DNA of 64,000 nt, taken from Thermodesulfovibrio sp. GTDB lineage: Bacteria > Nitrospirota > Thermodesulfovibrionia > Thermodesulfovibrionales > UBA6898. The notes under the pieces are model-generated. The model saw nothing but the letters and a program-made list of their open reading frames with translations, was not told where the DNA came from and searched no databases. The stretch covers positions 1-64,000 of the forward strand of contig PNOC01000008.1 of NCBI GenBank assembly GCA_013824615.1. Reading direction: 5' to 3'. A program made the translations under genes and the position numbers. Below, in pieces: positions 25,058 through 28,927 of the stretch; within the stretch, counting starts at the first letter, position 1; every line of letters starts with the position of its first letter.

Positions 25058-26701
25058 GTGCCGTTTAATTCCATTCCTGCAATAGATTTTTTAAACAGGG
25101 AAAGTGAACTTGCTTACCTGAGGCGCCTGCCTGAAGTGAAGTCAGACGGCCTCACCGGCAATGTGATCCTCACCGGTGGGCGGGGCATCGGCAAGACAGA
25201 GCTTCTCAAGCAGCTTTACCTCAGACTCTTCAGGGAAGAGGGATGCACCCCTTTTTATTATTCCTTCAGGACGGCAAACCTCAAAGGCAATTATTTTGCA
25301 CGGGACTATTTTGCGAGATTTGTCAGGCAGTATATCGCTTTCCTCAGGAAAGAACCTTCCCTTGCGGAGAATGTTTCTGAGCCGCTCCAGAAGCTTATGC
25401 CGCTCGTCTCTTCCCTGGGGCTGGAATGGCTGCTGGACTGCATGGCAGATTTCCAGGTCCATCTGGATAATAACGACCTTTATTGGCAGGTCATAGCGGC
25501 GATCTCAGTACCGGTGACTGCAGCGAGGAAAGGCGGAAGACCGGTTTTTGTGATGCTGGATGACTTCGATGCGGCCGAGAACCTCTATGAATCGGTCCGT
25601 GGCGACGCACACGGGCTTACGAGCCTTTTCAGCGAGGCAATGAAAAACAGCCTTTGCCCGCATGTGATCACCGGCTCTGCCGCTGCGCTTGAAGCAATTT
25701 TCGCGGATCAGGCATTCATCGGAGGAGTAGAAAGACTGCGCCTCGGCGCCCTTCCTGACGACCTCGCCCGGCAGCTCTTCAGGTCTCTTCTCGGGAAACT
25801 GCGGCTGTCCTGTCCTGCAGAAGAATCCCTGCAGTTTTTGAATCTCCTGAGGGGCAATCCACTCTATATCAGGAACCTTGCAGCGGCAGCGCGGAAGATG
25901 CAGAAGGATAATCTGGCTGAAAAAGACCTGGTTGAATGTTACAGCATGGATGTCTCAGAGGGAGAGACGGCCCGGTACTGGTCTTCGGTATTCAGCCGGT
26001 GCACCGGGGGTGCAGCCCGGAAGAAGGCGGTGGTTAAACTCCTTATGCATTCGGTTGAAGGCGGGGGGATGGAAGGCGAAAGACTTTCGAAGGTACTGGG
26101 CCTGCGGGAGGCCGAGACAGGGGCTGCACTGGACGAACTGCAGGCGTCGGGGATACTCTCTGACCAGGAGCCATTGCTTCAGGATTTTATCCGCGGGCTT
26201 TTTCTGAGGGAGATAGAAGGAAGAACCGCTGAGCAGGTACGCGAGGCCATAGAAAAAAAGTATTCCCGGGCAAAACCTGAATCATGCTTCGAGCTGGTTA
26301 TCCCGATGGATTTGAACGCTGAGCTTGTGGCTGCCGGTGCTGTCGAGCAGATCGGAAAGAACCTTGGCCTTGACAGCGATTTCCTGAGTTTCCTTCAGCT
26401 TGCGCTGATCGAGGTCTGCATCAATGCGATCGAACACAGCGGCAGCCATGACCGGCGGATCCTGCTCAAATTCATCTCCCGGGCCGATGATATCGAGATA
26501 ACGGTTGAGAGTGCCGGCAGGCCGTTTACCCTGGATTCTCTGTCGGCTGTCCCTGCTGAGGAGAAGCTCCGTGGAGGGCAGAAAAGGGGCTGGGGGTTCA
26601 GGCTTATATCAGGGATAATGGACAACGTAAAGGTCGAGAGGGTGGGCGACCGGACAAGAGTGATACTCAATAAAAATATAAAACACAAAGAGGTGCTTTA
26701 A
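25058..26701 (+). CDS. P-loop ATPase fused to an anti-sigma-type (RsbW-like) HATPase domain
   Basis: The N-terminal part (about 10-290) is an AAA/STAND-like ATPase: Walker A TGGRGIGKT (about 39-47) and Walker B VFVMLDDFD (about 164-172). A helical middle region (about 290-400) looks like a winged-helix/sensor segment. The C-terminal 130 residues form a GHKL ATPase of the RsbW/SpoIIAB kind, with N-box LALIEVCINAIEHSGS and G-box GWGFRLISGIMD. The next gene encodes a STAS protein whose ATG overlaps this stop. I infer a partner-switch kinase whose activity is gated by the N-terminal ATPase. GTG at 25058 is the start chosen. I know no characterised protein with this exact architecture. Confidence 0.75.
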   Translation: MPFNSIPAIDFLNRESELAYLRRLPEVKSDGLTGNVILTGGRGIGKTELLKQLYLRLFREEGCTPFYYSFRTANLKGNYFARDYFARFVRQYIAFLRKEPSLAENVSEPLQKLMPLVSSLGLEWLLDCMADFQVHLDNNDLYWQVIAAISVPVTAARKGGRPVFVMLDDFDAAENLYESVRGDAHGLTSLFSEAMKNSLCPHVITGSAAALEAIFADQAFIGGVERLRLGALPDDLARQLFRSLLGKLRLSCPAEESLQFLNLLRGNPLYIRNLAAAARKMQKDNLAEKDLVECYSMDVSEGETARYWSSVFSRCTGGAARKKAVVKLLMHSVEGGGMEGERLSKVLGLREAETGAALDELQASGILSDQEPLLQDFIRGLFLREIEGRTAEQVREAIEKKYSRAKPESCFELVIPMDLNAELVAAGAVEQIGKNLGLDSDFLSFLQLALIEVCINAIEHSGSHDRRILLKFISRADDIEITVESAGRPFTLDSLSAVPAEEKLRGGQKRGWGFRLISGIMDNVKVERVGDRTRVILNKNIKHKEVL

Positions 26702-27063
26702 TGAATCCTGCTCAATTCACCGTTGACTCCAGGCTTGACGGAGACACTGCGGTCATCTACCCGAAGGGATACCTGAACAACCTTGCGGGAGAAAGTCTTG
26801 TTGCCGAGTGCGGCAGATACACCGGCAAAGGCATCAGAAAGATCGTACTCAACTTCGGTGGTACCGGCCTGATCAATTCCATCGGCATATCCCTGCTGCT
26901 TCAGATTATCGAGGACCTCAGGACGATCGAGGGCACGGTCTGCTTCTCGAATATGTCCAAGTTCCAGGTAGACACGCTCGACATGCTTGGCCTGCTGAAG
27001 CATCTGCGCATTTTTCCTGCTGAAAGTGAAGCGCTTCAGTATCTCGGCGCCGGCGCGGTATGA
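26701..27063 (+). CDS. STAS-domain anti-sigma-factor antagonist-like protein
   Basis: A 120-residue single STAS domain. The order GDTAVIYPKGYLNNLAGESL, IRKIVLNFGGTGLINSIGIS, and a C-terminal helix matches RsbV/SpoIIAA. The serine of NSIGISLLL occupies the position phosphorylated by RsbW-type kinases, although the usual D-S-x-G is N-S-I-G here. Start and stop overlap with the kinase gene (TAATG), so the two are made together. The likely role is to relay the phosphorylation state to the GAF-HD-GYP protein encoded just downstream. No sigma factor is encoded here. Confidence 0.82.
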   Translation: MNPAQFTVDSRLDGDTAVIYPKGYLNNLAGESLVAECGRYTGKGIRKIVLNFGGTGLINSIGISLLLQIIEDLRTIEGTVCFSNMSKFQVDTLDMLGLLKHLRIFPAESEALQYLGAGAV

Positions 27064-27069
27064 GCCTGC

Positions 27070-28263
27070 ATGAGCACAGAACTCAAAAGGGCCCTTTATA
27101 ACATCTCGGCCCTGGCTGATCTCGGCCAGGAAATTACCGCGGGCGGGAGTAATTTTCAGGAAAAAATACAGGCTGTCCTCTATGTGATCACCGGGACATT
27201 TCTGACCAACAAAGGGGCGATACTGGCCTGCAATAAGGACGGCCAAATGCATATCCTTGCGCAGCGCGGTTTTGACCAGCTTGACCCCGGCCGCGCAGCC
27301 GAAGAAATTAAGGCACTTGCCAGAAACGAGCCCTGTTTGCTCCCTGCCGCCTTCGGTGCCGATGCCGGGGTTGCTATCGGCGCAGGGATACTGACACCGC
27401 TCTGGGTGCGGGATGAGTTTGCCGGGATGGTTCTGCTCGGAGAAAAGTTCACTGCCGATCCTTACACCGCCGAGGACTTTGAACTCCTCCGCATTATCGC
27501 CGCCCAGATTGCGGTGGCTCTGAACAACCATTCCCTTTTCAGGGACCTCTCGGCCCAGCTCGATGAAAACCGGCGACTCTACGAGGAGATGCGGCGTATC
27601 TACCACGACACGCTCCAGGCGTTTGCCGCTGCAATTGACGCAAAGGACGCCTATACAAAGCACCATTCCCAGAGAGTCGCAAAATATTCCGTTGCCATAG
27701 CCCGGGAACTGGGGTGGAACGACCACGATATAGAAGGGATCTATGTCGCCGGGTATCTCCACGACGTCGGGAAGCTTGTGATCAGCAACGACCTGCTGAA
27801 CAAGAAAAAACCATTTACCCCGGAGGAAGTCGATCAAATCAAGACGCATTCGACCCTCTCCCACACGATCATCTCGAAGATAAATTTCCCCTGGAAGGAT
27901 GTCGGCAAGATGATCAGGCATCACCACGAGAGACTGGACGGCAGCGGTTATCCTGATGCGCTTACCCATGAGGACCTGAATGACGGCGTCAGGATCCTTA
28001 CCCTGGCCGACGCGTTCGACGCGATGACCTCCCGGAGGGCATACAGGGACAAGATGGATATACAGGATGCGCTCAGTGAACTGAAGAATTGCCTGGATAC
28101 TCAGTTCGACAACCGGATCCTGCTGGCCTTCTGCAGGGTTCTTGATAAAGAGATAAAGGGCGAACTGCCTGAACCTGACATACTGCCTCACTTTGACCGG
28201 GATTCTGACCTGTCGGTTATTGCCGCTCTTCTCGAAGGAATAATCCGTGAGCTCTCGTCATGA
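27070..28263 (+). CDS. GAF-HD-GYP protein, predicted c-di-GMP phosphodiesterase
   Basis: A 397-residue soluble protein. A GAF domain fills about residues 20-165 (ending IAAQIAVALNNHSLF). The HD-GYP domain follows, with HHSQRVAKYSVAIARELGW, YLHDVGKLVISNDLL, ILSKIN-type segment (ISKINFPWKDV), the HHHERLDGSGYP signature and LADAFDAMTSRRAYR. All metal ligands and the GYP tripeptide are intact, so hydrolysis of c-di-GMP is plausible. It lies six bases after the STAS gene. The carboxy-terminal 70 residues are variable. Ligand of the GAF domain is unknown. Confidence 0.88.
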   Translation: MSTELKRALYNISALADLGQEITAGGSNFQEKIQAVLYVITGTFLTNKGAILACNKDGQMHILAQRGFDQLDPGRAAEEIKALARNEPCLLPAAFGADAGVAIGAGILTPLWVRDEFAGMVLLGEKFTADPYTAEDFELLRIIAAQIAVALNNHSLFRDLSAQLDENRRLYEEMRRIYHDTLQAFAAAIDAKDAYTKHHSQRVAKYSVAIARELGWNDHDIEGIYVAGYLHDVGKLVISNDLLNKKKPFTPEEVDQIKTHSTLSHTIISKINFPWKDVGKMIRHHHERLDGSGYPDALTHEDLNDGVRILTLADAFDAMTSRRAYRDKMDIQDALSELKNCLDTQFDNRILLAFCRVLDKEIKGELPEPDILPHFDRDSDLSVIAALLEGIIRELSS

Positions 28264-28294: not shown

Positions 28295-28927
28295 ATGGAC
28301 CTGATACCCATAAAGATTCAGCACGGAGAGGAAAAGGCCTGGGAGCAGGTCTGCGGCCTTTCCCGTCAGGACGTATCATCGAGGACCCGGTCGGTCTTTG
28401 ACGAAAAGGCCGGGGCCTACCTGCTCCGCTCCTTCGGCATTGACTTCCAGGTGAACCCCTGCGAAATGCTGATCGCCTGCCCATCAGGACAAGGGGAACT
28501 TTTCCTCGGCAAACTCAGGGATTTTTTCAGAATTGCGGTGCTCTGGTATATGTCTCACGCCAAGGATATTCCTCCCACCGGAAGACTTATCCGCCCGGTG
28601 GATGTCAAGGGAGGTCACCGCTTTACTACCGGGACCCATCTGCTTCCGGTGGATGTCATAGCCGGGATATTCGCCAGGGATAAAGAGGGTTTTATAAATA
28701 AAGGCCTGCAGTACGGGGCTGAGGTTGCTGACGGGCTCGGTGATGCAGGTATCCGGTTTTATCCGCTTCCCCGTGTACCGGTTACGATGATCCTCTGGAT
28801 TGCTGATGAGGAATTTCCTGAGCGGGTTGACCTGTTTTTCGATTCCACCTGTGAGTTTCAGCTTGCGCTTTCTGATGTTATTTGGGCCGTGGCGATGATG
28901 TGCTGCATAGTCATGATTGATGGCTGA
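28295..28927 (+). CDS. DUF3786-family protein
   Basis: A 210-residue soluble protein of the DUF3786 type, recognised from HGEEKAWEQVCGLSRQDV near the start, YLLRSFGIDFQVNP, LWYMSHAKDIPPTGRLI, FTTGTHLLPVDVIA and PRVPVTMILWIADEEFP. The family is common in strict anaerobes and sometimes accompanies corrinoid or iron-sulfur proteins; no reaction is known. It sits between the HD-GYP gene and a small exported protein. TATAAT at 28283-28288 ends six bases before the ATG and no ribosome-binding site is present, so the message may be leaderless. Confidence 0.75.
   Translation: MDLIPIKIQHGEEKAWEQVCGLSRQDVSSRTRSVFDEKAGAYLLRSFGIDFQVNPCEMLIACPSGQGELFLGKLRDFFRIAVLWYMSHAKDIPPTGRLIRPVDVKGGHRFTTGTHLLPVDVIAGIFARDKEGFINKGLQYGAEVADGLGDAGIRFYPLPRVPVTMILWIADEEFPERVDLFFDSTCEFQLALSDVIWAVAMMCCIVMIDG

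Follow-up and report, generated by a model that had tools for sequence, protein, structure and literature searches.

In P. aeruginosa, the phosphorylatable STAS protein HsbA of the HsbR-HsbA-HsbD system acts directly on a diguanylate cyclase, HsbD (PMC5085249). STAS or STAS-like proteins also control a diguanylate cyclase in the pairs BgrV-BgrR, of the BgrSTUWV-BgrR system of S. meliloti, and SiaC-SiaD, of the SiaABCD system of P. aeruginosa (PMC8457831). A partner switch with an HD-GYP output was not found described in the literature searched, which is weak evidence given that subscription papers fell mostly outside its scope, and c-di-GMP enzymes are not mentioned in a review devoted to STAS-only proteins. 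The original prediction for the locus described here, that no system of such make-up had been reported, therefore has to be narrowed: partner switches that act on diguanylate cyclases are published, and none was found that acts on an HD-GYP protein.

The locus lies within the window, i.e., the whole stretch of 64,000 nucleotides that was analysed, and is formed by three genes of the + strand (25058-28263) that are as tightly joined as had been predicted, since the start of the STAS gene overlaps the stop of the NTPase-HATPase gene by 1 base, and only 6 bases separate the STAS gene from the GAF-HD-GYP gene. A DUF3786 gene (28295-28927) is located downstream of the latter on the same strand. The features of the locus are the following:

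25058-26701, + strand: NTPase-HATPase gene (ORF1), 547 aa, GTG start.
25175-25198, + strand: Walker A GGRGIGKT, residues 40-47 of the NTPase-HATPase protein, by motif pattern.
25559-25561, + strand: Walker B-region Asp168 (LDDF) of the NTPase-HATPase protein, invariant in alignments A1 and A4.
26336-26671, + strand: HATPase_c_2 domain (Pfam), residues 427-538, with N-box E452/N456 and G2 G511-x-G513.
26510-26518, + strand: G1 box reading Ser485-Ala-Gly487, altered from the Asp that related HATPases carry, by ungapped alignment to RsbW.
26701-27063, + strand: STAS gene (ORF2), 120 aa, by Pfam STAS and alignment to SpoIIAA.
26878-26880, + strand: codon of Ser60 of the STAS protein (INSIG), predicted phospho-acceptor, aligned with SpoIIAA Ser58.
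27070-28263, + strand: GAF-HD-GYP gene (ORF3), 397 aa, by Pfam, motifs and structure-chain alignment.
27070-27558, + strand: GAF subfamily domain at the N terminus, proposed as the input on which STAS docks; its closest relatives outside the module are in proteins that adjoin HATPase-STAS genes and bear other outputs.
27760-27774, + strand: HDVGK motif of the HD-GYP protein, residues 231-235 (HDxGK).
27922-27954, + strand: HHERLDGSGYP motif of the HD-GYP protein, residues 285-295 (HHExxDGxGYP).

The three-gene set is a real and conserved signalling module. The fused NTPase-HATPase protein, complete or cut, is present in 31 of 295 sampled Nitrospirota genomes and in 7 of the 120 genomes from the order to which L089 belongs (Syntrophales-type records), and a longer relative was detected in 17 of 247 Acidobacteriota genomes. 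The order kinase-STAS-HD-GYP was found in Nitrospirota, Syntrophales and Acidobacteriota, with a median gap of -4 bases between the ATPase and STAS genes, and with nearly all the STAS-HD-GYP gaps between -40 and +6; this recurrence in three phyla and the coupled starts and stops rule out that these genes are chance neighbours. One of the 5 genomes searched in the genus of the window has the cassette, and no relative of the module appeared in the viral contigs searched. In the tree of the ATPase, the sequence from the window clusters with those of Syntrophales (100/100), apart from its own family, and all three genes of the window are nearer to Syntrophales than to that family; this probably reflects a transfer of the whole cassette, as one unit, from one phylum to another, in an exchange between Nitrospirota and Syntrophales. 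A MAG contig labelled Nitrospinota (L107) carries a module with an NTPase-kinase 92% identical to a Nitrospirota one, and it is perhaps misbinned or recently transferred.

Three layouts were recognised. Layout A, presumably the ancestral one, includes the genes for a PocR-GAF-GGDEF cyclase, the NTPase-HATPase, the STAS protein and the GAF-HD-GYP protein, and is shared by many Nitrospirota and Acidobacteriota; layout B, formed only by the cyclase and the NTPase-HATPase, is that of the Nitrospirota family f15; and layout C (NTPase-HATPase, STAS and HD-GYP) is that of the window, its family, f9, f13 and Syntrophales. In addition, at one locus, L055 (G153), no HD-GYP gene adjoins those of the kinase and STAS. 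The cyclase gene, which the original prediction had missed, abuts the NTPase-kinase gene in many relatives; in Acidobacteriota it precedes the kinase gene in 17/17 cases, and all three cyclases scanned in this phylum have the PocR-GAF-GGDEF make-up. The GG(D/E)EF motif is intact in nearly all readable linked cyclases, the RxxD inhibitory site is present in the 37/37 that were scored, and the Asp of GHxxGD is kept in all 33 sequences in which this motif is readable. Hence the wider module, which recurs in three phyla and often with this cyclase, looks like a real second-messenger signalling module, predicted to comprise both c-di-GMP-making and c-di-GMP-breaking enzymes.

No cyclase adjoins the module in the lineage of the window. 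When a cyclase orthologue was sought elsewhere in its own genome, 40 GAF/GGDEF matches were obtained, none of them a clear orthologue, given that the best is a GAF-GGDEF match only (residues 310-663, 38%), with no PocR part. Shortened cyclase genes are present in L057 and L060, as expected from an ongoing loss of the cyclase. The remnant in L057 (1567-1905) encodes 113 aa, is internally deleted, and is located ahead of an intact kinase-STAS-HD-GYP set.

Regarding the first protein, AAA_16 matches residues 12-175 over the Pfam cut-off, ATPase_2 (residues 11-272) falls just under it, and HATPase_c_2 matches residues 427-538 with 53.5 bits; a Walker A (GGRGIGKT) and a Walker B-like sequence (VMLDDF) were found. 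In the AlphaFold2 model (pLDDT 84, pTM 0.69), Foldseek related the N-terminal part (residues about 1-400) to the Walker-type archaeal ATPase 2qen, and the C-terminal part to SpoIIAB/RsbW (6m36/1l0o). Nevertheless, ORF1 does not reach the NCBIfam equivalog cut-offs for RsbW (31 bits versus 145) or SpoIIAB (19.7 versus 135), and the RsbW, SpoIIAB and SpoIIAA models all match far under cut-off; by this measure, the proteins of the module are related to these families and not members of them. Walker A is intact in 45 of 48 Nitrospirota and Syntrophales rows, the other three being fragments or outliers. In 16 of the 17 Acidobacteriota homologues, however, the NTPase has lost the Lys of its P-loop, and the predicted ATPase activity of the front end can therefore not be regarded as common to all modules. 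The Acidobacteriota homologues without this Lys (L214-L229) keep the HATPase, i.e., the putative kinase domain.

The residues of the HATPase domain deserve a separate consideration. The N-box E452/N456 and the G2 lid G511-x-G513 are invariant or nearly so in the intact members, and thus the lid residues on which the original prediction had made the kinase activity depend are in place; however, the Asp of the G1 box is replaced by Ser485 in the protein of the window, a change that had been overlooked. The alignment with RsbW is ungapped at this box, and the position is occupied by Ser, Asn or Thr in 51/51 intact module members and by Asp in 46/46 generic related HATPases. In the GHKL ATPase superfamily the G1 Asp contacts the adenine; its replacement in all members means that ATP-dependent kinase activity is not assured, and the loss of the base contact in an otherwise kept pocket suggests either an altered use of nucleotides or that the kinase activity was lost. 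The predicted fusion of a P-loop ATPase with an RsbW-like kinase is therefore confirmed as to its two domains, and the second of these is better described as a putative kinase. Given the Ser at G1 (26510-26518), the nucleotide specificity of the domain may differ. It is conceivable, although we regard it as improbable, that the nucleotide which the GHKL domain, with its altered base pocket, uses or senses is not ATP but another one, perhaps of the guanine type, and that the guanine-nucleotide state would set the phosphorylation of the STAS protein and in this way reciprocally control the cyclase and the HD-GYP enzyme.

The second gene encodes a STAS protein (Pfam STAS, 41 bits) in which Ser60 (LINSIG) aligns with Ser58 of SpoIIAA, a position where the aligned PDB chain 1tid is an S to A mutant. 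The phospho-acceptor position is Ser or Thr in 49/49 STAS homologues, and accordingly the serine predicted at the RsbV phospho-site was borne out. This strict conservation is pertinent to a possible role of the module as a phosphorylation-independent scaffold, where the HATPase would no longer be a kinase and would act as a nucleotide-gated or inert dock for STAS that gathers the HD-GYP protein, and the GGDEF protein where present. The G1 replacement in 51/51 members, the loss of the P-loop in most Acidobacteriota, and a SpoIIE phosphatase that is not universal (see below) agree with such a scaffold, which we nonetheless consider unlikely, given the strict retention in three phyla of the N-box Glu and Asn, the GxG of the lid and a Ser or Thr as acceptor.

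The third protein, for which the Pfam GAF model falls just under cut-off and HD_5 scores 112.7 bits, carries the catalytic residues that had been foreseen: H231, D232, H260, H285, H286 and D314 align with identical residues of PmGH (4mcw) and V-cGAP3 (5z7c), and HDxGK and HHExxDGxGYP are intact in 47/47 HD-GYP homologues. The closest match in the PDB is an enzyme specific for cGAMP, and c-di-GMP is the presumed substrate of the protein of the module. With a profile built on the GAF domain at the N terminus of these HD-GYP proteins, the closest outside relatives were located near HATPase-STAS pairs of other phyla, in proteins whose output is either HisKA or SpoIIE, and in one protein that is fused to a nucleotide cyclase and HATPase_c_2. 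In genome-wide searches with this GAF, the top match in 5/5 genomes outside the module was a frame as long as the protein adjacent to HATPase-STAS, with 65-81 bits versus 24-53 for the next GAF, and in four genomes without the STAS/HD-GYP pair the best match reached only 36-46 bits. Since the nearest outside relatives of this GAF adjoin HATPase-STAS genes and bear other outputs, we infer that STAS may act through the N-terminal GAF of the HD-GYP protein. Members of the subfamily beside HATPase-STAS genes, with swapped outputs, occur at L120, L122, L123, L130, L164 and L166; the output is a histidine kinase, a SpoIIE phosphatase or, at L130, the nucleotide cyclase fused to HATPase_c_2.

Another aspect is which of the components belong together. 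In 8/8 Acidobacteriota genomes where STAS and HD-GYP both sit away from the kinase locus, these two genes are adjacent, and in a ninth case (L226) the STAS-HD-GYP pair is located about 3 kb downstream. In family f15, no STAS match was obtained in 6 of 7 genomes, with a weak match in the remaining one, and neither the lid nor most of the N-box residues remain in the HATPase domains of this family; both features are retained in all lineages that have a STAS orthologue. As f15 is one clade in the tree, the loss of STAS there counts as a single evolutionary event. The f15 loci (L071-L077, L079) keep the fusion protein and, wherever it is visible on the contig, the cyclase, but have lost STAS, HD-GYP and the HATPase lid. 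Conservation of STAS and HD-GYP neighbours had been proposed as a check of the module, and the linkage is indeed kept in three phyla, although homologues without these neighbours exist in f15 and in the split Acidobacteriota. The original prediction would have counted such homologues against it, but they appear to support the link between these proteins, since the HATPase of f15 decayed where STAS is missing, and the split genomes keep STAS and HD-GYP paired.

The persistence of the cyclase with the NTPase-kinase in f15 without STAS, as well as its tie to the NTPase-kinase gene in 17/17 Acidobacteriota, would also fit a flow in the reverse direction, in which the GGDEF and HD-GYP proteins set a local c-di-GMP level that controls the NTPase-kinase, with STAS as the output towards an unlinked target. 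We consider this very improbable: in the split modules STAS pairs with HD-GYP and with no other candidate target, and Pfam detects no known c-di-GMP-binding domain in the NTPase-kinase.

The absence of an encoded sigma factor, part of the original prediction, was corroborated, given that no sigma factor gene is present within the locus or at a conserved neighbouring position. The genome of the window has 10 sigma-70 region 2 loci, all away from the locus; when its sigma proteins were compared with the related neighbourhoods, few matches appeared, none of them adjoining the module and with no conserved place. A sigma factor as the output was discarded on these grounds, as the few neighbourhoods matched are unrelated to the module. 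A classical anti-sigma role, in which an unlinked sigma factor would be sequestered by the HATPase protein, with STAS as antagonist of the latter, and HD-GYP and GGDEF would only be co-regulated or adjust c-di-GMP alongside, has in its favour these 10 loci and the fact that, among solved structures, the HATPase and STAS domains are nearest to SpoIIAB/RsbW and SpoIIAA. It seems to us a doubtful explanation, considering that no sigma gene occupies a conserved neighbouring position in three phyla, that in split modules the partner kept by STAS is HD-GYP and not a sigma gene, and that the HD-GYP protein carries a GAF subfamily typical of STAS-adjacent proteins. Regarding the phosphatase, no SpoIIE-type gene is present in the operon, and the genome of the window has two good SpoIIE loci and one weak. 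As an obligatory partner it was rejected, because none was found in the module-bearing genomes G034, G194, G277, G227 and G310, several of which are near-complete.

The kept kinase-STAS-HD-GYP linkage, the phospho-site and the HD-GYP motifs speak for an effector that is a c-di-GMP enzyme and not a sigma factor, and we judge it reasonably probable that the module works as a partner switch of a non-sigma kind, by which the turnover of c-di-GMP is set. In this mechanism, the NTPase-HATPase protein would bind STAS, and the NTPase front end, in response to some signal, would control the phosphorylation of Ser60 by the HATPase domain, by analogy with RsbW and SpoIIAB. In one of its two phospho-states, STAS would dock on the GAF at the N terminus of the HD-GYP enzyme, so as to either raise or lower the hydrolysis of c-di-GMP; in the wider module, the adjoining PocR-GAF-GGDEF cyclase would provide the opposing activity. 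The output had been predicted as c-di-GMP breakdown alone, which agrees with the linkage, the phospho-site and the motifs but leaves out this cyclase. Against a partner switch stand the replacement of the G1 Asp throughout, the lack of SpoIIE in the operon, the L055 locus without HD-GYP, and the fact that the loss in f15 is one event.

The module resembles RsbU/RsbV/RsbW and SpoIIAA/SpoIIAB in the HATPase_c_2 fold and in the phospho-site Ser at the same position of STAS. It differs from them in that the kinase-like domain is fused to a P-loop NTPase and has its G1 Asp replaced, and in that HD-GYP, with GGDEF in relatives, is linked instead of a sigma factor or a PP2C phosphatase. The lineage-wide loss of this Asp from a pocket otherwise kept offers a clear test case for its role in GHKL enzymes. 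With the 2qen-type archaeal Walker ATPases (ATPase_2/AAA_16) the fold of residues about 1-400 is shared; however, the protein of the module is fused to a GHKL domain, and its P-loop is degenerate in Acidobacteriota. The HD-GYP protein belongs by sequence to the same family as PmGH (4mcw), V-cGAP3 (5z7c) and PA4781 (4r8z) and shares their HD and GYP motifs, with Tyr195 aligned at the position of the PmGH Glu that binds a third metal, but unlike these enzymes it would be regulated through a STAS-linked GAF subfamily. This dedicated subfamily, with its swappable outputs (HD-GYP, histidine kinase, PP2C), is suggested as the target of STAS, and would allow the targets of orphan STAS proteins to be predicted. 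HsbR-HsbA-HsbD, BgrSTUWV-BgrR and SiaABCD likewise include a phosphorylatable STAS or STAS-like protein, which in their case acts on a c-di-GMP enzyme; nevertheless, in these systems the effector is a diguanylate cyclase and HD-GYP is absent, and SiaC is a DUF1987 protein whereas the switch protein of the window is a STAS protein. If the proposed mechanism is true, partner switching would not be limited to sigma factors and single cyclases but would also cover the breakdown of c-di-GMP, and in relatives both arms of its turnover, in phyla that have little signalling genetics.
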